From NCBI RefSeq assembly GCF_000196655.1, contig NC_014254.1, positions 1 through 64,000 on the forward strand: a stretch of 64,000 nucleotides of DNA, read 5' to 3'. A model generated the notes under the pieces. The model did no database searches and was not told the origin of the DNA. It was given only the letters and a program-made list of their open reading frames with translations. Both the position numbers and the translations under genes were made by a program. Source of the DNA: Methanohalobium evestigatum Z-7303 (GTDB taxonomy: Archaea > Halobacteriota > Methanosarcinia > Methanosarcinales > Methanosarcinaceae). Positions 9,337-64,000 of this stretch are shown one piece after another (the first letter of the stretch is position 1; the number at the start of each line of letters is the position of its first letter).

Positions 9337-12300
9337 ATGGTTTATATATTAGGTGTTAGGGAGCTACAATGGGATACATATACATTATTTAGAAGATGGT
9401 TTTCTATGAAATTGTTGCAGTATTTTAAAAACAAAAAATCGGTAATCATTGTAACATTAATGCTTGGTTTTTTTATCATATTAATAGATATTGTGACTGA
9501 TATCATTGACCCAACTGCAAGTTTATCTTTGTTTGATCTTTTCATTTATCTGGTTATTTTACCAGTATTCTTATTGTTTGGTATTGTCATTGCAAGTGCA
9601 ATGGGTGAGTACAAAAACTTAAACAATGTATTCCAATCGGTTAGCGATGTTAACCAGCTAATAATAAGGGAGAAAAATGTTGAACAGTTGTTACAAAGGA
9701 CCTGTGATATTCTAACTAACTCTCGTACATTTGAAAGCACGTGGATAATTCTATTTGATGAAGATGGAAATATAACAGCATCTTCAGAATCAGGAGTAGG
9801 TCCGAGTTTCAATGATTTCCTGAAAAGATACGAAAGAGGGGAGATGAGCCGATGTCTTCAGGATTTATTCTACCAATCTGATAATTTACTGGTTATTGAA
9901 AATAAAAAATCAAATTGTTCGGATTGTCCATTGATACTGAAAGAGACAGGTTACAATGCTCTGGTTTCAAGATTGGAACATGGAAATAAATTATATGGGA
10001 TTTTGGCTGTTTCAGGTTCTGATGATATAATCTCGGAACGGGGTAAACAATTGTTCCATGAAGTTACTAGTGATATATCCTATGCTCTATATAACCTAGA
10101 ATCTGAGAACAAATTAATAGAAAAAGAAGAAAGACATAGAACCATCGTTGATGATGTCCTTGATAGTTCTAAGGTTGGAATTTTCATACTGGATTCCTGT
10201 TTTCATGTAGTCTGGATTAATGAACCGATGGAGGATTATTTCGGAATTGATAGAGAAGATATAATCGGCAAAGATAAACGACAGCTTGTCGAAGATAAAT
10301 TGAAACATATTTTTGAGGATAGCGATGAGTTTGCAAACAGGTTATTAGCTACATACGATGATAACAGCTATATAGAGAATTTTGAATGTCATGTCCTTCC
10401 TGATAGTAACCGAGAGGAGCGATGGCTTGAACACTGGAGCCAACCGATAAAATCAGGACTTTATGCAGGCGGGCGCATAGAACATTATTACGATATCACT
10501 TACAGGAAAATAATCGAACAAGATCTTCGTACAGAAAGGGATTTTATAGAAAAAGTGGCAGATACTAGTCCTATTTGTATAACAAAAGTTGATAGAAACG
10601 GTTACATTGTTTATGCAAACCATGCAGCTGAGATGGTCTTAGGTTTGTCCAAAAGTAAAATACAGGAGCGAACCTATGACGATGTGAAATGGAAAATTAC
10701 TGATTTTGATGGAAATTATTATCCTCAAGAAGAATTACCATTTGAACTCGTCCAAAAATATCTGGAACCGGTTTATGATGTAAGACATGCTATACAATGG
10801 CCTGATGGTCAGAGAAAACTTTTGTCTATAAATGCGGCTCCTATATTTGATGATTATAACAGGTTCGATGGTTTAGTTGCAGCTATCGAAAATATATCTG
10901 AAAAAATAGAAAAAGAAAGAGAATTAAAGGAAAGTGAAAAAAAATTCCGCAATTATATAGACCATTCACCTATAGGTATATTTGTAGCCAATAAAGATGG
11001 GTATTATGTGGATGTTAACCCTGCTGCTTCATCTATTACTGGTTATACAAGAGATGAATTGTTGTCGATGAACCTGATTGATTTGCATCCACAAGATGTA
11101 CTTGAACAAATCTATCAAGCCTATAATTACCTCGTAGAAAACGGTAAAACCTCTGTAGAACTGCCGTTCATAACGAAAAAAAGCGAACTAAGATATTTCA
11201 TATTGGATGCAGTAAAACTTTCAGATGATAAATATCTGGGTTTCACTACTGATATAACTGAACGCAAAAAAGTAGAAGATGAATTGAAAGAGAGTGAGGG
11301 TAGGTTCAGAACTGTTATAGAACAGGCAGCGGATGCTATAATAGCTCATGATTTTGACGGCAATATATTATATGTTAACGACCTTACCTGTGATAATTTA
11401 GGGTATACAAAAGATGAATTGTTGTCGATGAATCTTGCTGATATTGACCCAAATATTGATACTTATGAACCCAGAAAGAGATATTGGGATAAATTATCAT
11501 ATCACAGTTCATACCTTATAGAGACGGTAAACAGACGCAAAGATGGTTCAGAGTTCCCGGTAGAGGTTAAAATGACATTAATGAACCTATCTGGAAAACC
11601 TGTAATCTTGGGTTTCGTTCGCGATATAACTGTCAGAAAACAGGCAGAAGAAAAGTTAATAAACGCAAAATTAGAAGCTGAAGCTGCTAACCAGGCAAAA
11701 AGTGAATTGCTGGCTAATGTAAGCCATGAACTAAGAACTCCTCTAACATCGATTATCGGTTTTTCTGATGTGATTTTGAAAAGAAAAGTAGGAGATTTGA
11801 ACGACAATCAAACACGTTACTTAGATAAAATCCATAAAAGCGGTCAACATCTACTTGACCTGATAAATGATATACTCGATTTAGCAAAAATTGAATCTGG
11901 TAAACTTGAACTTCATCGGGAAAAAATATCAATACCAGCACTACTTAATGATTTGGAATCTAAATTGTATCCTTTTGCATCAAAAAAAGGTCTGTCTTTA
12001 GATTCGGAAATCGATCCAAATATTGAATATATATATGCAGATGAAATAAAACTCAGGCAAATACTTTACAATTTAATTTACAACGCTATAAAATTTACAA
12101 ATAAAGGCTCCGTAACTGTTACTGTTAGGCAGAAAAATGATGCATACCAATTTTCAGTTATCGATACGGGTATCGGTATACCGGAAGACAAACAGGATGA
12201 AATATTTGAGTCGTTCAGACAATTGGATACTGGTGCTAGCCGGCGATATGCTGGAACCGGTCTTGGATTGGCACTTGTTAAGAGATTGGTTGAAATCCAT

Positions 12301-12393
12301 GGTGGACAAATCTGGGTTGAAAGTGAGGAAAGCAAAGGAACAACTTTTACTTTCACTATTCCATCAACGAAAAGTGAACTACCATTTGGCTAA
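9337..12393 (+). CDS. Multi-PAS sensor histidine kinase
   Basis: 1018-aa membrane sensor kinase. Two transmembrane helices (residues ~37-57 and ~65-88) precede a GAF-like domain (~95-250, with a CSDCPL cysteine pair) and four PAS/PAC domains (~265-385, 395-525, 530-645, 650-770). HisKA follows with NVSHELRTP (phospho-acceptor His797), then HATPase_c with an N-box (LIYNAIKFTNKG), DTGIGIP and GTGLGLALV. It has no receiver domain and no response regulator beside it. The start is uncertain: ATG 9406 (MKLLQYFKNKK) is also good. The last residues KSELPFG and the TAA at 12391-12393 are encoded by an inserted TnpB-transposon right end, so the native C-terminus was replaced, but only after the last conserved HATPase strand. 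Confidence 0.93.
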   Translation: MVYILGVRELQWDTYTLFRRWFSMKLLQYFKNKKSVIIVTLMLGFFIILIDIVTDIIDPTASLSLFDLFIYLVILPVFLLFGIVIASAMGEYKNLNNVFQSVSDVNQLIIREKNVEQLLQRTCDILTNSRTFESTWIILFDEDGNITASSESGVGPSFNDFLKRYERGEMSRCLQDLFYQSDNLLVIENKKSNCSDCPLILKETGYNALVSRLEHGNKLYGILAVSGSDDIISERGKQLFHEVTSDISYALYNLESENKLIEKEERHRTIVDDVLDSSKVGIFILDSCFHVVWINEPMEDYFGIDREDIIGKDKRQLVEDKLKHIFEDSDEFANRLLATYDDNSYIENFECHVLPDSNREERWLEHWSQPIKSGLYAGGRIEHYYDITYRKIIEQDLRTERDFIEKVADTSPICITKVDRNGYIVYANHAAEMVLGLSKSKIQERTYDDVKWKITDFDGNYYPQEELPFELVQKYLEPVYDVRHAIQWPDGQRKLLSINAAPIFDDYNRFDGLVAAIENISEKIEKERELKESEKKFRNYIDHSPIGIFVANKDGYYVDVNPAASSITGYTRDELLSMNLIDLHPQDVLEQIYQAYNYLVENGKTSVELPFITKKSELRYFILDAVKLSDDKYLGFTTDITERKKVEDELKESEGRFRTVIEQAADAIIAHDFDGNILYVNDLTCDNLGYTKDELLSMNLADIDPNIDTYEPRKRYWDKLSYHSSYLIETVNRRKDGSEFPVEVKMTLMNLSGKPVILGFVRDITVRKQAEEKLINAKLEAEAANQAKSELLANVSHELRTPLTSIIGFSDVILKRKVGDLNDNQTRYLDKIHKSGQHLLDLINDILDLAKIESGKLELHREKISIPALLNDLESKLYPFASKKGLSLDSEIDPNIEYIYADEIKLRQILYNLIYNAIKFTNKGSVTVTVRQKNDAYQFSVIDTGIGIPEDKQDEIFESFRQLDTGASRRYAGTGLGLALVKRLVEIHGGQIWVESEESKGTTFTFTIPSTKSELPFG

Positions 12394-12497
12394 AGACCAA
12401 GTGGCTTCAGAAGGAGTTTGCTTTACCGACATGTGTTGCCGAAAAACCTTATCCTTCCTGGATGGTTCACACACCCACTATCGGTTATCCCTTTACG
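12374..12497 (-). mobile_element. Right-end remnant of a TnpB (IS1341-type) element
   Basis: Read on the minus strand this is a degraded tnpB 3' end (GGGATAACCGATAGTGGG, as in the intact element at 15.3-16.7 kb), a spacer, then the hairpin CCACTTGGTCTTTAGCCAAATGG and TTCAC at 12374-12378. It matches the right end of that element but carries a different stem. It abuts and terminates the kinase gene. The rest of the element was lost where the next transposase begins. Confidence 0.75.
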
Positions 12498-13407
12498 ATC
12501 AGCTTGATGAAACCAGTAAAAATCGAGTAAAATCCATATGCAAGAAGTATGCTGATAAGCTTAATAATACTAATCAGGATAAAAACTTGAGACACCTGGA
12601 TAACGTAAAGATAGCTAAGCAAGAATCTGTTAAAGATGATGTTAGAAGATTTAGCTTAACAGACCCGGAATCAAGGTTTATTAAGAATAAGAAAGGCAGA
12701 ATCGAACTGGGATGCAACACTCAAATCACTGTTGACCATAAGGAAGGAATCATAATTGCTAATGATGTATGCCAACAAAGAAGTGATGCTCACCAGCTTA
12801 AACCACAACTTGAACTTGTTGAAAAGTATTGTGGAAGATTAGGTAAAGGTACAAAGATATGTGCTGATAGCGGTTACATTCATGAGATAAATGTACAATA
12901 CTTGAAACAAAAAGATTTAGACCCTTATATACCGGAACAATCCGATAAAGATAACATAAAAAAGGTACGGAAACATAAAAAATAAAACCGGTTCAATGTT
13001 TCTAATTTTATATATGATGAGCAAAAGGATGTGTACATCTGTCCTGAAAATCGGATTTTAAAATATTCATATGAAATATATGACGAAAAAAGGTCTCAAA
13101 AACGTTGGGTTTACAGAGGTACTCATTGCAGAGACTGTAAATCAAATCAACAGTGTACAAATAGAAAAGATAGAATCAGGCAACTGAAGGTTAATCATCT
13201 ATCCCGGGATAGAAAACGACTGAAAGAAAAGATGAGTACTGATAAAGCGCAGTCAATCTTTAAACAGAGAAAATATACTGTAGAACCGGTTATAGGAAAC
13301 TACAAACAAAATTTAAGATTCAGGGAATTTATTACAAGGGGATTGAATTCAGTTAAAAAATGTTTAACCTGGTATGTGCTGCTATAAACCTGAAAAAGTA
13401 TGGTTGA
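12498..13407 (+). pseudogene. Broken IS1182-like transposase
   Basis: C-terminal two thirds of a DDE transposase. It includes DPESRFIKNKKGRIELGCN and VDHKEGIIIANDV, then CADSGY, PENRILKY, a CRDCKSNQQCT cysteine motif and VEPVIGNYKQNLRFREF. The N-terminus is missing where it meets the TnpB remnant. A TAA at 12983-12985 interrupts the frame, which continues at once with NRFNVSNF. A second lesion at the A-run near 13352 shifts out the natural end (CAAINLKKYG). It cannot be functional. The family is assigned from overall layout and is not certain within the IS1182/IS5 superfamily. Confidence 0.8.
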
Positions 13408-40879: not shown

Positions 40880-41686
40880 ATGGAATTCAAAGAACTTACA
40901 GATGAACAATGGGAATTCATTGAACCTTATCTACCGCCGCAACCTTCAACCGGTAGGAAAAGGGTTGATGACCGCAAGGTCATCAACGGTATACTGTTTG
41001 TACTGATTACTGGTTGTCGGTGGGGAGATATGCCCAAACGTTATGGATCACCTATAACTGCATGGAGACGATTGAAAACTTAGTCACAAGAAGGTATATG
41101 GAATAATATTATACAAGCTCTACGCGATACCGCATACATCAACGGTAACCTGTCGTTAGATACGATATATATTGACAGCAAATCCAGCGAGACCAAAAAG
41201 GGGAAAATAACACGATATAGATATCATGTTTACAAGAAAAGAAAAGGAATAAAACTCCACGCTTGTATAACTAACGATGGATTTCTTGTAGGATTGATTA
41301 TCTTACAAGGTGTCGAATATAATAGTAAAAAGTTCTTTGAACTCATAGAATCTATCAAAATCAATACTAGATCCAGACCCAGAACAAGACCTGATGAAGT
41401 ATTGGCTAATTCTGCATTTGATACATTAGATATCCGTGGGTATTTAAAGTCCAGATTGATTAAAAATAATATTCAAGTAAATCCCGGAATCCAGAAAAGG
41501 AGGAGTTTAGGAAGACCTGCAAGATTTGAACCCAGGTTTTATCACAAGAGAACTACTATAGAACGGTTATTTGCATGGTTGAAAATGAGATTCAGAAAAG
41601 TGAACAACAGATACGAAAGATTGGACTCAGTATTTAAGGGGTTATTAAATATCGCATGTTTTATGTTATGCTGGAACAAGGTTTAA
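40880..41686 (+). CDS. IS5-family transposase with in-frame TAG (possible pyrrolysine)
   Basis: A 269-codon frame, full length for this IS5/IS1031 subgroup. The N-terminal LTDEQWEFIEPYLPP and GCRWGDMPKRYG precede LSLDTIYIDSKSSETKKG and YKKRKGIKLH (first Asp), EVLANSAFDT (second) and YHKRTTIERLFAWLKMRFRK (Glu). The only defect is a TAG at 41081-41083, codon 68, at a place where relatives often have Trp (RLKxWSQEG). The frame is otherwise clean on both sides. If UAG is decoded as pyrrolysine, as in methylotrophic Methanosarcinaceae, the protein is complete; otherwise it is a nonsense mutant (TGG to TAG). Confidence 0.85.
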
Positions 41687-56375: not shown

Positions 56376-56459
56376 TTACTTATAAAGTATACTATATATC
56401 ATCCAGGCAGTTTAATATTTTTCAATAATATATTCAATCTCTTCCTGATTGACCAAATT
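56376..56459 (-). pseudogene. Ghost of cdc6 5' region on the far side of the transposon
   Basis: Minus-strand reading NLVNQEEIEYIIEKY, a stop, then MIYSILYK. This parallels the region of Cdc6 just before and into Walker A (ARDSQIEQIAELVEPVL, then FIYGKTGTGK). It lies immediately beyond the TnpB element that truncates the cdc6 at 54146-55107, so it is probably the missing 5' part in decayed form. The similarity is short. Confidence 0.4.
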
Positions 56460-56598
56460 CTAAAAAATAGCATAATTTTAGATGATAGGAAAACTGAATT
56501 ATATACTTATAGATGTAAAAAAGATAAAAGGAAAGTAGGTTTAAAACACCATCTAACAACCGATAATTAATTTTGTTGCTACTAATTGAATTAGATGT

Positions 56599-57720
56599 TT
56601 ATTCTTCTTTTTTAAACAGTTTGTGATGCGATATTATTAAATTTCGCAGTTCCTCCCTGTTTATCAATTTTACATCATTTGCTTTTGCAAGGTCTACGGC
56701 TTCAGATGTATAGTAATTATTTGTAACGACCATTGCTGAATTGCATAGATAATACCGCATTGAAGCAACAACTTCCTGAACTGCACTGTTTCCCACTTTT
56801 GAACTAGATTGTTTGACCTGTACAGCAATGCGTTTAGATCCAAGTTTGGTCAATATCACATCCGCACCCTGATCTTTGTCATTGGTTTTTTTAGTTCTGC
56901 TTGCATAATATCCCTTATCTCTGTAGATCTTGCATACAGCCTGTTCAAGTTCTTTGGGTGTCAGTTTATCCGGGTTGTCGGGTAATTCTTCATCCTCGCC
57001 ATCTCTGCTTATAAGTAGCAATATATCCTTTAAAGGAACATTTCCTATTTCGCAGATGATTTCAGCGATTTGGCATTTGAACATAAGGTCATCTGTTTCT
57101 TTTAGATATTCTTGAAGTCGGTCTTCAAAATCCTCATCTTTCAACATATCCTCAAGCAATTCCCTTGTTTCAGGATCCCAATTTTCATTAAGTGCATTAA
57201 TAATTGGGTCGATTGCTTCAGGTTCTAATTCCTGAAATATTTCAATTAGGATTTCGCGTTCATCTTCTACAGATTCTCGGAAATAAACAAGAGTTGAAAG
57301 CTCCTTGATCATTTCCCTTTCTTCATGTCTCAAGTAATCAATAATCAGATTTGCAGTATACTTGCTGTGTCTATTTAATATCGATTTATAAGTGAATATT
57401 TTAATCCTATGGTGGATTGTTTCTGGTCTTGGAAGTTTATTCCTGAGTTCATGTAGAACAAATGGAACAGCAGAATCATTATTTTCAAGAATACTTAAAA
57501 ACTCTCTAATTAATTCCTCTGAATTTTCATCATTTCTGATTTCCTCTTTAACTTGTATGACAGCAGGTTCCCTGATATCAGCCAGTATATCTTTTATTTC
57601 TGAGTTCGGGTATGTTTCTTTGAGACAATTAATTAGAGGTTCTACTGCTTTTTCTCCATGGTTTACAAGAGCTCCTTTAATCTCAAGATTGTCCATTGTA
57701 TTGTTTTGTTCATTATTCAA
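56599..57720 (-). CDS. HEAT-repeat protein with Mrr-type endonuclease domain
   Basis: 373 aa. Residues ~1-240 are helical HEAT-like repeats (NHGEKAVEPLINCLKE, EPEAIDPIINALNENW). Residues ~260-370 form an Mrr_cat restriction-endonuclease fold: ELEQAVCKIYRDKGYYASRT, GADVILTKLGSKRIAVQVKQ with the catalytic Asp and Q-x-K, and NSAMVVTNNYYTSEAVDLA. It is expected to bind and cut DNA, perhaps modified or foreign DNA. The motif appears complete. A shorter paralogue follows upstream at 57944-58678 on the same strand. Confidence 0.8.
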   Translation of the reverse strand: MNNEQNNTMDNLEIKGALVNHGEKAVEPLINCLKETYPNSEIKDILADIREPAVIQVKEEIRNDENSEELIREFLSILENNDSAVPFVLHELRNKLPRPETIHHRIKIFTYKSILNRHSKYTANLIIDYLRHEEREMIKELSTLVYFRESVEDEREILIEIFQELEPEAIDPIINALNENWDPETRELLEDMLKDEDFEDRLQEYLKETDDLMFKCQIAEIICEIGNVPLKDILLLISRDGEDEELPDNPDKLTPKELEQAVCKIYRDKGYYASRTKKTNDKDQGADVILTKLGSKRIAVQVKQSSSKVGNSAVQEVVASMRYYLCNSAMVVTNNYYTSEAVDLAKANDVKLINREELRNLIISHHKLFKKEE

Positions 57721-57943
57721 TTCTTTTATAAGCGGCTATATGGATATTTTTTCAATTTTGTTCACATTTAAACCTCCTTAATTTTATATTTATATTTTTA
57801 TAAAATTCAATTAAACGTTTGGTTTTTTTGTGCAGATAATTTTGAGAATAAAACAACTGAGAAAAGTGATTTTTTCAAATTCTGGAAAAATAAAATCCAT
57901 GTAGAAGAATGGACTTAAAAACTGATTTAAAACCGGAAATTCT

Positions 57944-58678
57944 TTACAGATTAACCATTTCTTCCAGTTGTTCTCTATTGATTAGGGAAACATTATTCGA
58001 TTCCGCTAGTTTTACTGCTTTTTGTGTAAAATCCTGGTTGGAAACGACTATGGCACTGTTGCAATGGTAGTAGCTCTTTGCCGCAACGATTTCCTGAACA
58101 GCATTTCTCGTGACTTTTTGACCTGGGTTTAGATGTTTTATAAGAACCGCGGTTCTCTCGACTCCGTATTCAGTTATGACAAAATCTGCACCCATATCTT
58201 TGATGCCAGTTCTTTCGACCAGATATCCTTTATCTCTGTACATCGACTCGATAAAATCTTCAAATTCTTTCCATGACATTTCGTCCAGGTTATTATTCTG
58301 CTGAGAATTACCAGTTGTCTGTATCTTTTGATTCTGTTTCCTCGAATCGGAACTATCCTGGTTTTCAATGTTTTCCTCGACTCGGTCAAGTATCAACTGC
58401 AGCTGATGGGTGTCCCCATATCGCTGGTACTGTTTTATTTTTCCTGACAGACAATCGACAGCCGGTTGTCCAATCTGTATGAGGATATTTTCTAGGTCCT
58501 GATAGTATCCGTCATGATAGAGGTGTTCGATGATTGTATCTGCTGCCAGATGTTCCATCCTTATCAGGCAATCTTCGATTTCTTTTTTGGTACAGTGGCT
58601 GTCTGTGGATAACATTACTTCTAACATCGATTCTACTGCACTGTCGATTATCTTATCTTTATTTTCTACTTTCATCAT
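57944..58678 (-). CDS. Short HEAT-Mrr paralogue with altered catalytic motif
   Basis: 244 aa. One or two HEAT-like units (~25-85), a Gln/Asn-rich linker (~95-130), then an Mrr-like domain: SWKEFEDFIESMYRDKGYLVERT, GADFVITEYGVERTAVLIKHL, NSAIVVSNQDFTQKAVKLA and NVSLINREQLEEMV. The Q-V-K of its neighbour is L-I-K here, so the catalytic Gln/Glu is lost while the fold motifs remain. It is probably a non-cutting partner or regulator of the paralogue. The two genes are ~220 bp apart on the same strand. Confidence 0.75.
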   Translation of the reverse strand: MMKVENKDKIIDSAVESMLEVMLSTDSHCTKKEIEDCLIRMEHLAADTIIEHLYHDGYYQDLENILIQIGQPAVDCLSGKIKQYQRYGDTHQLQLILDRVEENIENQDSSDSRKQNQKIQTTGNSQQNNNLDEMSWKEFEDFIESMYRDKGYLVERTGIKDMGADFVITEYGVERTAVLIKHLNPGQKVTRNAVQEIVAAKSYYHCNSAIVVSNQDFTQKAVKLAESNNVSLINREQLEEMVNL

Positions 58679-58786
58679 GCGAAATCCTCCTTTTATTCTT
58701 GGTTTAAATCCGGGTGATAGCTCCTGCAGCTCTTTTTCCTATTAGTGTCAAAAGATCTCAGGATTCTATATTTTCTACAATTACCC

Positions 58787-58850
58787 GCTCTTGCAATTAA
58801 CAGCTAGTTTCCTGCTACCGTTAATTGCATTGGTTCGTATGGTTATTTTT
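58787..58850. repeat. Hairpin repeat, copy A (partial)
   Basis: CAATTAAC (58794-58801) and GTTAATTG (58820-58827) form a stem around TTTCCTGCTACC. It is a diverged half-copy of the second hairpin in copies B and C, including the GGTTATTTTT tail. Confidence 0.55.
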
Positions 58851-58923
58851 TGTAGTGGTTTAGAGAACAAAAGCAGCTGGAATAATCTGATCATATCCAG
58901 TAATCAACATAGAAAATAAAAAA

Positions 58924-59070
58924 GAGAGGACCAGGCACTCCCCCTGTTAGCCTGCTCCTCTGTATACCCCTATTAAACCCCCCAACGCACGCTCTCTCGT
59001 AATCAACAACCAATTTCCTCGTTACTGTTGATTACATGAATTTGTTTGGTTATTTTTGTGCGTAATTTGA
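58924..59070. repeat. Double-hairpin repeat, copy B
   Basis: Hairpin 1 has arms GAGGACCAGGC and GCCTGCTCCTC (58926-58960). After ~40 bases hairpin 2 has arms TAATCAACA (59000-59008) and TGTTGATTA (59026-59034). It is nearly identical to copy C over ~130 bp. The mazEF-like pair lies between B and C. Confidence 0.75.
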
Positions 59071-59153
59071 TACATAAACAACTGTAATAATATATTAATT
59101 AAAAATTCTGTAAAAAAACAATTTTATCACTGATCGAAATAAGTTAATAAGAG

Positions 59154-59486
59154 TTAACTCGTAAAGATGTTAACTAACTTCTTTTCCACTTCATCTGTTT
59201 TATCATTTTTTAGGTATCCTACTTTGTATAATATTAATGATTTATCAGCGGTAAAAATCCTATTTGGCCGAATGTTGCTATTTTTGCGTAAAGTTCCATA
59301 TTCAAAATCATTATCATTTAACGTTATTGAATAATTATCAATTTTGACCGCGCTTGTAATCATACAAAGAATTATATCTTCTCCTTGTAAATTGGCTAAC
59401 ACAAGAGCAGGTCTCTTTTTAGAATTACTCATATCAGAAAAAGGGAATGGTAATACAACAACATCTCCTTTTACAAATCTTTCCAT
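59154..59486 (-). CDS. MazF/PemK-type toxin
   Basis: 110 aa. MERFVKGDVVVLPFPFSD is the MazF N-terminal beta-strand pair, KRPALVLANLQ carries the conserved basic/Pro segment, and ILCMITSA the catalytic-site strand. Members of this family cleave mRNA (mRNA interferases). It overlaps its antitoxin by 16 bases and is translated after it, the usual toxin-antitoxin order. Confidence 0.85.
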   Translation of the reverse strand: MERFVKGDVVVLPFPFSDMSNSKKRPALVLANLQGEDIILCMITSAVKIDNYSITLNDNDFEYGTLRKNSNIRPNRIFTADKSLILYKVGYLKNDKTDEVEKKLVNIFTS

Positions 59487-59719
59487 GTTTCATCCTCTTC
59501 TTCTGTATCCCATTCTTTTTTGAGGACCTTTTCGCTTGCTAAAGCAGTAGAGATTTTTTCATCCAACTGGTCCATGGATCTCAACTCTATTCTATCATCG
59601 TATGCAAGTATCACAATTTTAGAACCTTCTTTAAAATTTTCAAGTTCCCTTATTTCTTTAGGTATTGATATTTGACCTTTCTTTGTAATCTTAGCGCTTC
59701 TGAAATCGATAAGTGTCAT
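59471..59719 (-). CDS. AbrB/MazE-type antitoxin
   Basis: 82 aa. The swapped-hairpin AbrB fold is at residues ~8-50: KITKKGQISIPKEIRE and GSKIVILAYDDRIELR. An acidic C-terminal tail (WDTEEEDETWKDL) would wrap the toxin. It probably binds its own promoter, which lies within or beside repeat copy C. Confidence 0.85.
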   Translation of the reverse strand: MTLIDFRSAKITKKGQISIPKEIRELENFKEGSKIVILAYDDRIELRSMDQLDEKISTALASEKVLKKEWDTEEEDETWKDL

Positions 59720-59821
59720 ATAAGTAAGAAATGTAAGAATAATATTTAATGGTTTTGTACATTCCAGAATAGCGATTTCAACCTATAAAATTTTAGATTT
59801 TGATTAAAAATTATATTAAAA

Positions 59822-59953
59822 TGAGGAACAGGCTCCCCCATTAGCCTGCTCCTCCATACCCCAATGAACTCCCCAACACGCTCTCTCGTAATCAACAACC
59901 AATTTCCTCGTTACTGTTGATTACATGAATTTGTTTGGTTTTTTGTGCGTTAT
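59822..59953. repeat. Double-hairpin repeat, copy C
   Basis: Hairpin 1 is GAGGAACAGGCT/AGCCTGCTCCTC (59823-59854) and hairpin 2 TAATCAACA/TGTTGATTA (59889-59923), followed by the same GAATTTGTTTGGTT tail as copy B. It lies in the promoter-side flank of the mazEF-like pair and directly precedes a TnpB remnant. Confidence 0.75.
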
Positions 59954-59976
59954 TTGCTATTTTGAACAGCTGCAAA

Positions 59977-60250
59977 GTGAACTACCGCTGAGCTAAAGAC
60001 TCAGCGGCTTCGGAAGAAGGTTACCATGAAAGCCTTACTCTTTAAATCAAAGATTTAAAGATATTTGTAAATTTTCAATTTACAAAGTTCTTCCCGGGGA
60101 GTTCACGTCCCCACTATCGGTTATCCCTGCAAGGGAATCACCGATTACCTTTCTCAAGATGTTCAATGCACCGTTGATATCGGCATTGATCAGCCTACCT
60201 GTAGATGACTGGAAGATTCCTCTCTTAGGTCTTTTACCGAATTTGTAAGC
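59977..60250 (-). mobile_element. Truncated TnpB element (right end and tnpB 3' end)
   Basis: On the minus strand it encodes GKRPKRGIFQSSTGRLINAD and NGALNILRKVIGDSL, almost the C-terminus of the TnpB at 15.4 kb. Two extra AT-rich perfect hairpins follow, TTTGTAAAT/ATTTACAAA (60064-60086) and TTTAAATC/GATTTAAA (60041-60059). Then comes the right-end hairpin CCGCTGA/TCAGCGG (59985-60007) with the usual loop and TTCAC (59977-59981). The intact element lacks the AT hairpins. The 5' part is lost against the 3' end of the GmrSD-like gene. Confidence 0.75.
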
Positions 60251-60339
60251 GTGGAGGAGTTTGATGAGATGATAGATAGCCGGATAAATTTTGACAACCT
60301 TTGGCTTAACCATCAACTCTCTAATATTTATAGAGGCAA

Positions 60340-62010
60340 TTATGGGTATTGCCAAACTTCAAGAGCTTTGTTGGCTAAAGTTTTGCTACGGTTGATTATT
60401 GAATCTTTGTTCCATGCATCATATTCTCTTAAATCACTGTTTAGATATAGAGGACTTTTATCAAATATTTCTTTCTTTTCTTTGAAAGTGGAATCACCAA
60501 GTTCAGGATTATGAGCAGTAAGAGTCAGGTTACCTATTGTGTGCAAATAATGGTTCTGAACTTCTTTCCAGTTTGGACCCAGTTGATCGATCCAGGCTTC
60601 TGGTAAATTGGGATTCTGGGGCATTATATGTTCTATTGTGTAATTATCCATGTATATAGGTTCTTTAGTTCTGAAGTCATTTGCATTTTCTAGTTTAGTT
60701 AGCAGATATTTACAGTTTCTAAAATTATATACATCCTTATTCATCAGTTCATTGTAAAATTCATCGTCTTCTGGGAACCTTCTATAGGTTTCTTTTGACA
60801 TTAGTGCAGCTTTAACACTTTCAACATAGTTATCCTTGTCTACTTCATTCATCAAAGTAGAAAAAGTTTTATTGAGTGAATTTGTTGGGATACTGCAGAT
60901 AGCTCTACGGAATACATAAGAGATTACAACATCAAGTATTTCAATAAAATCTTTTTTATCTATATTGCCATCTTGATAATCGTAATATACCTGTAGTAGG
61001 AATGGATAAGCAACTTCGACTTTCAAGATGTTGATTTCATTAAATTTCTCATTTAAACCATCGTCATTTTCTTTATTGAAGGCGATGTTCATATACAATT
61101 TAGAATGACAGTATATGTCCTGAATTATTTCTTGAGTGGTGTTTTCTAGCCCTTTATAGTACTGTTTAAATTCTTCATATATTTCGTTAAAACGTGGAAT
61201 CCTATTTAATTTGATAGTTAGATAATCACGCATGAACCTATCAAATCGTTCTTGATAATTTTCATGTCCAAAAATTTGTTCCATTTTGTACCAGTAATTA
61301 TTGTACAGATTTTTCTGGTGTTGTTGTTCCAGACCCATTAGTAGATAATTTCTTATTAAATCAGATTGTGACAAATCAAGCCCTGTAGAATTTAAACTTT
61401 CAAAAATAAGTTGTGGATTGTCCATGTTGGCATCTAACGAAATATCTACAATGATTAATTTTTGAAGAGCTTTGAATATCTATTCTAAGTTTTCAGGTGC
61501 GTATTCTGTTATTTTATTTTTGAAAAAGTAGTAGTTTTTGATTATATTTGGAGAATAATCATTTTGGATTTCATTGTTTTCCAAAATATTTACGTAAGTA
61601 TCGTTATCGTTTCTATTCAATACCAGTTTATACCTTAATTCATCCTCTTCATCTTGATTTAAAAGATAATAGTTTTTGATTTTACGTGAATTAATACCTT
61701 TTACTTGGTCACTATTATTTTTTATAGCTTCTCTTAAAGCCTGCAATAACAAAGAAATCGTAGTCAAACGCTGCTGTCCGTCTATAACATGTAGTTTTGT
61801 AATTGTTGATATCTGGTAAATGTCACTATTGATATAAACAATAGATCCCAAAAAATGGCTCTGATATTGACCATTCAGAAGACGTTCAATGTCCTCCCAT
61901 AATTTCTGGCAATGGTTTTCGTTCCAGCTGTATGTACGTTGATATATAGGGACAATGAACTGTTTTTGCCCTTCTAAAAATTTATGCAGGTTAATTTCTC
62001 CAGCTTTCAT
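60340..62010 (-). CDS. GmrSD-like DUF262/DUF1524 nuclease with in-frame TAG
   Basis: A 557-codon frame from ATG 62010 to TAA 60340, interrupted only by TAG at 61480-61482 (codon 177). DUF262 (ParB-like nucleotide-dependent domain): PIYQRTYSWN and HVIDGQQRLTT (~75-84). Immediately after the TAG the conserved family sequence continues: IFKALQKLIIVDISLD and DNPQLIFESLNSTGLDLS. The C-terminal DUF1524 HNH nuclease has NYTIEHIMPQNPN near 455-467 and HTIGNLTLT. The family includes type IV restriction enzymes that attack modified phage DNA. No frame is lost on either side of the TAG, so pyrrolysine read-through would give a complete enzyme. Confidence 0.85.
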
Positions 62011-62236
62011 GGAGCTTTATTTTGAAACTAAAATATTTAAAAGTTAAGTTTTGCAGATAGTTAGGGTATGCCAAATACAACGAAAAAACCAACCATACAA
62101 CACATGTTAATGTTTTCAGGTCTATAAAATAATAAAAAACTGGAGCAGAAACTCCTAAAAAATCCTAAATTCTATTTTTTTAAGTAAAAAAGTTTTGAAA
62201 CAATCGCAGCTTTGCTACATGGTGGTTAATTCTCAA

Positions 62237-62405
62237 TCAGTCAAAGAAATACTTTTCCAAAAACCGCATGACTTCGCTTCTATATAACATATCATGGCAA
62301 AATTGGTTTTTGTAATTTCTAAGACACGCATAACAACTAGAGTTCCCATCTTCTCCTCCACAGTTACAATTTGACATCTTTGTGTAAGTGGATTCTAATA
62401 TATTA
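62237..62405 (-). pseudogene. Relic of a DUF1998-type protein C-terminus
   Basis: About 55 codons read LESTYTKMSNCNCGGEDG, then NSSCYACLRNYKNQFCHDML and YRSEVMRFLEKYFFD before TGA at 62237-62239. The CxC...CxxCLRNYxNQ...HDxLxR pattern is the signature end of DUF1998 proteins (as in DrmB of DISARM and MrfA/helicase relatives). The rest of the gene is absent: it begins beside the stop of the next surface-protein gene. The remaining bases 62011-62236 hold nothing recognisable. Confidence 0.65.
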
Positions 62406-62406
62406 C

Positions 62407-64000
62407 TTATCGTTTTTTTATGTATATTGATATACTAACTATCATACTCAAAATTGCCAATATAATCCACTTCAGGTCCCATGCACCGACACCTATAGTA
62501 TCATCTTCTTGGTCGCTATCAACAGGAGTTGATTCATTAGAAACATTGTTGTTTGTTCTGTTATTTTCAACTTGGGTATCAGTAGTGATACTTTGTGTCT
62601 GTTTCATTTTACCTGTTATTGCAAACGGTGAGAACCCGGGTGTATCAGATCTGAATTTGATAATGGTTTCATTTTCAGACAGTTTCTCGGTTTCAAGTTC
62701 ATCCCATGAACTACCGTGATGTCTACACATCTTAATAGTGGATCTTTCAATGTTGTTGTTTCTAATCCATGTTTTATCCACTATGAAATCAATGGATGCA
62801 TTTTCAACAATATTATCAAAACCTGCTTTACCAACCCAGATATTAATATTCTGATAAGCTTTACCGGGTGGTTTTTCATCAACCATTGTAGAATTGGATT
62901 TTAGTATAACTAGGCGTGTATTTGTTTTGCCTCTTGCTTCAGCTGCATCAAAATGTACACTTTTGACTTTGCTGATTTTGTTATCGAAGTTATACCAAAT
63001 ATGCCTATCATTGCCAACATATTTCTGGTTAACGAAATCATCTATAATATTATCTAAATCTTCATCAGTGTTAGAAGAACCACCACCCCCACCACCGCTA
63101 CTACTGGAACCACTGTTTATGTTTGTGTCCGTGTTCGTAACATTTTCATCGGTTTTTTGTTCTGCGATCTCGAAACTGGTGGTATATGTCTTGCTATTAC
63201 CGGCATTATCATATACAGTTACAGTCGAATTATATTTGCCTACACTTAACTCAGTGGAATTGTATGTTGCATATTCGCTGGTAATAGTGGTATTATCACT
63301 GGTTGTTTTGTCATCACTTTCAAACTTGATTGTAGTTTTACTTGTATTGATTCCGGATTGACCATCGCTGTAACTAAATTTAACTTTGACTTTTGATGTG
63401 CTGGAATCTAATATTGAACCCTCTGCAGGATACACTTCATCAATGTTTGGTTTCATATCATCATCAGCGATTGCACCATATGTTGAGAAGTGGTTTACAT
63501 TTGATGTCCAGTATTTGGTACCATCCAGCGATTTTTTATTAGTATTTACTTTATCCCATGATTCATTTGATTTGTTGTAATACCGGATTGAGACGTTATT
63601 ATCATCTAATCCTTTTGGTAACTCATTTTCATCTACTTTTATCTTGATAGTAGCATTTGTAAGATTGGCTGTTAACTTGTCACCTACATGCACATCCAGG
63701 AAATGTATCCCTACAAACTTTTTATCAAGTTCTACCTGTGGCATACTGGTTTCTGTAATGGTAACAGTACCTTTTGTATTATCAGATGTGTTAAATGTTA
63801 TCGACGTGCCAGTTTTTTCGTTTGACATTTTCCCTGTATTGTTAGATGTTTCAATTGTTTCTACATTGGCAGTCGATGAGTCATTTCCGGTGTTACCGGA
63901 TAGGTCAGAACCTGTTGTATTGATATCATAACTGCTGCCAGTTAATTGGAAGACACCTGACCAGTAATCATTTTCAGGTGTGACAGGGACATCATTGCCA
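62407..64000 (-). CDS. PGF-pre-PGF surface protein, 5' end beyond window
   Basis: The frame is open to the window edge (readable upstream of ATG 63828: DVPVTPENDYWSG and others), so this is the C-terminal part of a longer protein. Visible order: a strand-rich repeat region and a Thr-rich Ig-like domain (PNIDEVYPAEGS onward). A GSSSSGGGGGGSS linker leads to the PGF-pre-PGF domain (~260-400 of the visible part, ending DTPGFSPFAITG), an acidic linker, one membrane helix and KKR. It lacks the terminal PGF tripeptide of the 18.2-23.9 kb protein, so anchoring may be by the helix itself. The stop TAA is at 62407. Confidence 0.88.
   Translation of the reverse strand, partial: GNDVPVTPENDYWSGVFQLTGSSYDINTTGSDLSGNTGNDSSTANVETIETSNNTGKMSNEKTGTSITFNTSDNTKGTVTITETSMPQVELDKKFVGIHFLDVHVGDKLTANLTNATIKIKVDENELPKGLDDNNVSIRYYNKSNESWDKVNTNKKSLDGTKYWTSNVNHFSTYGAIADDDMKPNIDEVYPAEGSILDSSTSKVKVKFSYSDGQSGINTSKTTIKFESDDKTTSDNTTITSEYATYNSTELSVGKYNSTVTVYDNAGNSKTYTTSFEIAEQKTDENVTNTDTNINSGSSSSGGGGGGSSNTDEDLDNIIDDFVNQKYVGNDRHIWYNFDNKISKVKSVHFDAAEARGKTNTRLVILKSNSTMVDEKPPGKAYQNINIWVGKAGFDNIVENASIDFIVDKTWIRNNNIERSTIKMCRHHGSSWDELETEKLSENETIIKFRSDTPGFSPFAITGKMKQTQSITTDTQVENNRTNNNVSNESTPVDSDQEDDTIGVGAWDLKWIILAILSMIVSISIYIKKR

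Follow-up and report, generated by a model that had tools for sequence, protein, structure and literature searches.

An in-frame UAG codon in a plasmid-borne GmrSD-type nuclease gene of Methanohalobium evestigatum: a likely pyrrolysine codon at a tolerant position

GmrSD proteins are Type IV restriction enzymes that cut modified (glucosyl-hydroxymethylcytosine) DNA and hydrolyse NTP, and their fused form carries the domains PF03235 and PF07510. In GmrS of E. coli two stretches are conserved, residues 8-98 and 181-278, and the DGQQR motif has been defined for the family (PMC4619093). A gene on the plasmid of the archaeon Methanohalobium evestigatum Z-7303 encodes a nuclease with much in common with these enzymes. 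Both domains, DGQQR, the E-H-N-N residues and the fused layout are shared, and the gene likewise sits in a neighbourhood of defence and mobile-element genes. The likeness is one known from sequence. The plasmid gene differs from the family in having an in-frame TAG within GmrSD_N, and it is without the C-terminal extension of its chromosomal paralogue. The closest solved folds are those of DndI and SspE, which are DUF262 nucleases linked to phosphorothioation (PDB 9jfl, 6jiv, 7drs). Foldseek comparison with the DndI/SspE folds gave 1e-16 and 2.4e-12 and the profile match to 9jfl reached 1.5e-40, but identity to DndI is only 17-18%. The best matches in the PADLOC defence library, over almost the full length of the protein, are 'Orf5' (2.3e-176) and HEC-06 (3.1e-80), and no partner genes of either were identified on the plasmid.

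The in-frame TAG invites a second comparison. The methyltransferase genes mtmB, mtbB and mttB of the Methanosarcinaceae resemble the nuclease gene in having an ORF that is intact but for a lone in-frame UAG, in an organism with PylS and tRNA-Pyl. However, the pyrrolysine of the methyltransferases is in the active site, whereas the UAG of the nuclease is on a variable column and is unique there. Kivenson et al., in Science in 2025, are said to have proposed an archaeal code in which UAG always means pyrrolysine. The very low use of UAG as a stop and the in-frame TAG in unrelated genes are also seen in the sequence of M. evestigatum. Outside the methyltransferases, in-frame UAG has been annotated in transposases and a TetR gene of M. 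acetivorans (PMC3639795).

The nuclease gene and its surroundings

The window analysed is the first 64 kb of the 163,915-base plasmid, which is one of two contigs (C2) in a genome of 2,406,232 bases. Positions 60340-62010 on its minus strand hold an ORF for a single-chain GmrSD/DUF262-DUF1524 (HNH) nuclease of 556 aa, terminated by TAA. Read with table 11, this frame falls into two ORFs of 176 aa (61480-62010) and 361 aa (60340-61425). With TAG taken as sense it is one ORF whose sole TAG is codon 177 (61480-61482, minus strand), and no second stop or frameshift was found in the 556 codons.

A first-pass annotation had assigned the nuclease to the GmrSD type, and Pfam agrees. GmrSD_N (DUF262) covers residues 9-224 (61339-61986, minus strand; 1.3e-38, 133.6 bits with a cut-off of 33.2) and GmrSD_C (DUF1524, the HNH domain) covers residues 412-547 (60370-60777, minus strand; 9e-26, 90.8 bits with a cut-off of 23). 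The DGQQR motif is present at residues 77-81 (61768-61782, minus strand) and the HNH residues E460, H461, N494 and N501 are invariant across 40 sequences. The product appears to be a member of the GmrSD family and is probably a virus-defence nuclease.

The position of the TAG has to be redrawn. It had been described as separating DUF262 from the remainder of the protein, with termination leaving the sensor half. In fact it lies inside GmrSD_N, in a helix predicted for residues 172-183 ahead of a strand at residues 185-192, and a stop at codon 177 would break the GmrSD_N fold itself. By position, codon 177 would belong to the variable region that separates DGQQR from the second conserved stretch of GmrS. 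The expectation of a coherent readthrough product has held up. The 556-aa ORF contains both domains, is predicted to fold as one confident chain (pLDDT 92) and matches the chromosomal paralogue (C1:1184829-1186493, 670 aa, uninterrupted) from end to end at 70% identity. This match argues that the interrupted ORF is more than chance. A TATA-like TTTTAAATAT (62033-62042, minus strand) stands approximately 23-32 nt ahead of the ATG and is retained in the chromosomal copy; its placement would suit leaderless transcription. An Rfam search of the 64-kb window gave no match.

The plasmid nuclease is without the last 114 residues of the paralogue. Homology to the chromosome stops near 60352 and picks up again at 59959, and the relic of a multi-copy element lies between (59974-60350, minus strand). 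The relic, apparently of the IS605/TnpB type, has taken the place of the gene's 3' end and may carry a TnpB-like C-terminal frame. Part of it (59974-60240) has 56 matches in the genome, the best at 97%, and looks like a shortened IS605/TnpB derivative. Perhaps the truncation is harmless, because some distant homologues (L016-L018) likewise end near residue 556.

Upstream of the gene, a complete DruE-type helicase is absent from the plasmid. What is left there of a DruE-like gene is its final 46 codons (62237-62377, minus strand), whereas the chromosome has the full-length counterpart (1607 aa). The chromosomal defence block (L028:419-11832) consists of a gene for a 1446-aa protein, the gene for the 1607-aa DruE-like helicase and then the intact GmrSD gene. 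The 1446-aa protein had no PADLOC match, and the block is possibly a Druantia-like system with a GmrSD partner. Nucleotide identity between plasmid and chromosome is 99% in the DruE tail. It is 91% and then 77% in the intergenic region, which includes the TATA-like box, and close to 70% in the nuclease coding sequence. A longer collinear block of mosaic identity extends over window positions 56456-62421 (L028 9414-17647 on the chromosome); it includes a toxin-antitoxin-like pair at 92% and two Mrr-like proteins at 80%. The mosaic identity suggests recombination between plasmid and chromosome. With 114 C-terminal residues and the Druantia-like partner both gone, the plasmid nuclease copy may be dispensable.

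Codon 177 among homologues

What kind of position does the UAG occupy? An ordinary codon in the same species had been named as something that would count against dependence on pyrrolysine, and this is part of what was found, in the form of a GAG at the codon 177 column of the chromosomal paralogue in the same genome. A comparison of this codon among orthologues had also been proposed, to see whether TAG is present in pyrrolysine-using species. TAG is at the aligned column in none of the 117 other loci (118 with the window's own gene). The column contains 15 residue kinds, including E, Q, P, D, K, A, S, V and T, and is at the 99th percentile of variability among 114 homologous matches. A random TAG, weighted by mutation, would fall on so variable a site with P = 0.02. 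With 15 residue kinds and no TAG among the homologues, there is no sign that the residue encoded by the UAG has a conserved role of the kind seen in the methyltransferases. In 14 other Methanosarcinaceae genomes the matching regions are free of stops, and a search for near copies in a plasmid collection gave no match.

The rest of the protein has been well kept. Seven relatives share 135 invariant columns; the plasmid copy retains every one of these, and 100 of the 135 are located after the TAG. The relative rate of the plasmid copy equals that of the chromosomal copy on both sides of the TAG, and it has no excess of unique changes over the paralogue either before or after. dN between the two copies is 0.218 before the TAG and 0.183 after it, with synonymous sites saturated. 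Selection appears to have acted on the nuclease gene during most of its history after the two copies diverged, a constraint that leaves the TAG itself undated.

UAG in the rest of the genome

The pyrrolysine machinery that the first-pass annotation presupposed is present in the same genome. PylS is encoded on the chromosome (C1:298792-299508, 366.6 bits; ORF of 439 aa) and a tRNA-Pyl with a CTA anticodon is close by. Published accounts credit M. evestigatum with tRNA-Pyl and pylS and place pylTS in a different cluster from pylBCD (PMC3639795, PMC9499178). In the release factor aRF1 the NIKS and YxCxxxF motifs are normal, although the reading of UAG is not deducible from motifs alone. Because these motifs are normal, UAG should still be able to terminate and its reading as an amino acid would be a competition with aRF1, a situation that has been reviewed (PMC9499178). 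An altered aRF1 as the cause of readthrough was dropped for the same reason.

Stop use was counted for non-overlapping ORFs of at least 150 aa in a sample of about 700 kb of the chromosome and the whole plasmid. TAG terminates only 2 of 478 chromosomal ORFs, compared with its 17.7% share of stop trinucleotides. It ends 4 of 287 ORFs in the sister species, and its share of ORF ends is 0 to 8.6% in 100-kb samples of four other family members. On the plasmid TAG is the apparent end of 7 of 83 ORFs, several of which are really internal TAGs of longer genes: those for a BCCT transporter, a PAS histidine kinase and the nuclease itself. An interrupted transposase gene was identified independently of this count. 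Since UAG is almost never a stop in this genome, readthrough would be a general rule and not a property of the nuclease gene. An argument from backup stops was dropped: a second stop follows within 10 codons for 39% of TAG-ended ORFs, compared with 48% for TAA and 46% for TGA.

A related question is which stops interrupt genes. Of the long homologous ORFs that a single internal stop interrupts, five had TAG, one TAA and one a doubtful TGA. Mutational opportunity predicts 29% TAG and 47% TAA among internal stops. Therefore, if decay were the sole cause, TAA should dominate the lone stops, yet TAG does. This excess is suggestive. For it, as for the test of the TAG site against random sites, the genes are few, the criteria were chosen while the analysis was under way and the significance is moderate. 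Domain-spanning and homology counts were adopted because a codon-usage scan for interrupted genes produced mostly TAA and TGA cases that looked like tandem genes.

In-frame UAG is present in several unrelated intact genes of the plasmid, encoding a BCCT transporter, a PAS kinase and a transposase in addition to the GmrSD nuclease. The BCCT (betaine-type) transporter gene (L025:3414-5003, plasmid 127414-129003, minus strand) is intact but for one TAG in frame, at codon 305, and the Pfam BCCT match (1.6e-172) runs across it. Codon 305 is in an insertion relative to most homologues, and the chromosomal copy (C1:435426-436997, 74% identical) is intact. The PAS histidine kinase gene (737 aa; L023:276-2489, plasmid 84276-86489, plus strand) has a lone TAG at codon 453, where an intact chromosomal copy, 88% identical, has Ser. 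Taken alone, this TAG site is not significantly different from mutation-weighted random sites (P = 0.2). The IS4/5-type transposase gene (window 40880-41686, plus strand) has a lone TAG at codon 68, inside DUF4096. In the sister species, a histidine kinase gene with a lone in-frame TAG (L114:11617, minus strand) has an uninterrupted counterpart of 79% identity in the M. evestigatum genome.

Not every interrupted ORF is of this kind. A PAS-GAF ORF on the plasmid (L026:16739-17563) contains a pair of in-frame TAGs, one of them in place of a Trp that is invariant elsewhere, and looks decayed. In contrast to the TAG cases, a DDE transposase gene in the window (12116-13384, plus strand) has an in-frame TAA and is a plain pseudogene. 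Another stretch with a TAG (L025:17934-18974) was not counted as a gene, having no Pfam match and an odd composition.

Explanations for the interrupted nuclease gene

The best explanation, with a probability of roughly 0.6, is that pyrrolysine is the default reading of the UAG in the nuclease gene, at a site that tolerates it, as part of a genome-wide habit and without a gate specific to the nuclease. Codon 177 would be decoded by Pyl-tRNA(CUA) in plain competition with aRF1, in a host cell that hardly uses UAG as a stop any more, and the product would be the 556-aa protein. The UAG would have come from a point change at a tolerant position, with GAG, AAG and CAG each one step away. Pyrrolysine would have no special role at codon 177. 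In other words, there would be no dedicated switch and the dependence on pyrrolysine would be incidental. The plasmid copy would presumably be expressed, with pyrrolysine inserted, and active as a nuclease. What if the TAG is instead an ordinary nonsense change, making a recent pseudogene of a redundant plasmid copy from which the 3' end and partner genes were already disappearing? This is the main rival, a serious one, although the less probable account. It gains from the redundancy offered by the intact chromosomal copy (70% identical, with GAG), from the replacement of the C-terminal 114 aa by the IS605-type relic and from the reduction of the DruE-like neighbour to a 46-aa tail. The lack of TAG in any homologue and the other decayed plasmid genes (the TAA transposase and the PAS-GAF ORF) fit it too. 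Against it, there is no second lesion in 556 codons, with no conserved residue lost and no rate excess after the TAG, and the TAG is on a highly tolerant column. Lone internal stops of long ORFs are mostly TAG, and homologues that end near residue 556 suggest that truncation need not inactivate.

Could the UAG be a regulated gate that deliberately ties nuclease output to pyrrolysine or methylamine supply? The first-pass annotation had raised a nuclease gated by amino-acid supply or amber suppression. aRF1 looks able to compete, and pyrrolysine-dependent UAG reading in Acetohalobium changes with growth substrate, as far as the account of Prat 2012 in PMC8211752 goes. Nevertheless, a gate is very improbable when the codon is unconserved on a variable column, absent from every homologue and matched by similar TAGs in non-defence genes (transporter, kinase, transposase), when UAG stops are nearly absent genome-wide and when termination at codon 177 would cut GmrSD_N in mid-fold. 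Least credible is a restart of translation that yields two proteins. The 361-aa ORF does open with an in-frame ATG, 18 codons after the TAG, and in some GmrSD systems GmrS and GmrD are separate proteins (PMC4619093). The cut here is unlike the known S/D split, as it falls inside GmrSD_N and leaves out the strand of residues 185-192, and close homologues are fused across codon 177. The two-protein reading was disfavoured on account of this cut within a domain.

Default reading of UAG as pyrrolysine could be taken one step further. If UAG were an all-purpose pyrrolysine codon, plasmid accessory genes such as the nuclease would be translatable only in hosts that read it this way and would be silent elsewhere, creating a code-based barrier. 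This extension is unlikely. The more immediate meaning of default reading at codon 177 is that, if readthrough takes place, pyrrolysine would be present in a protein unconnected with methylamine metabolism, as a residue that is merely tolerated. Such tolerated sites would show UAG drifting towards the status of an ordinary sense codon. Annotation with the standard code fragments the genes for the nuclease, the betaine-type transporter and the sensor kinase. Therefore, surveys of defence systems in these archaea would miss or misread genes of this kind.
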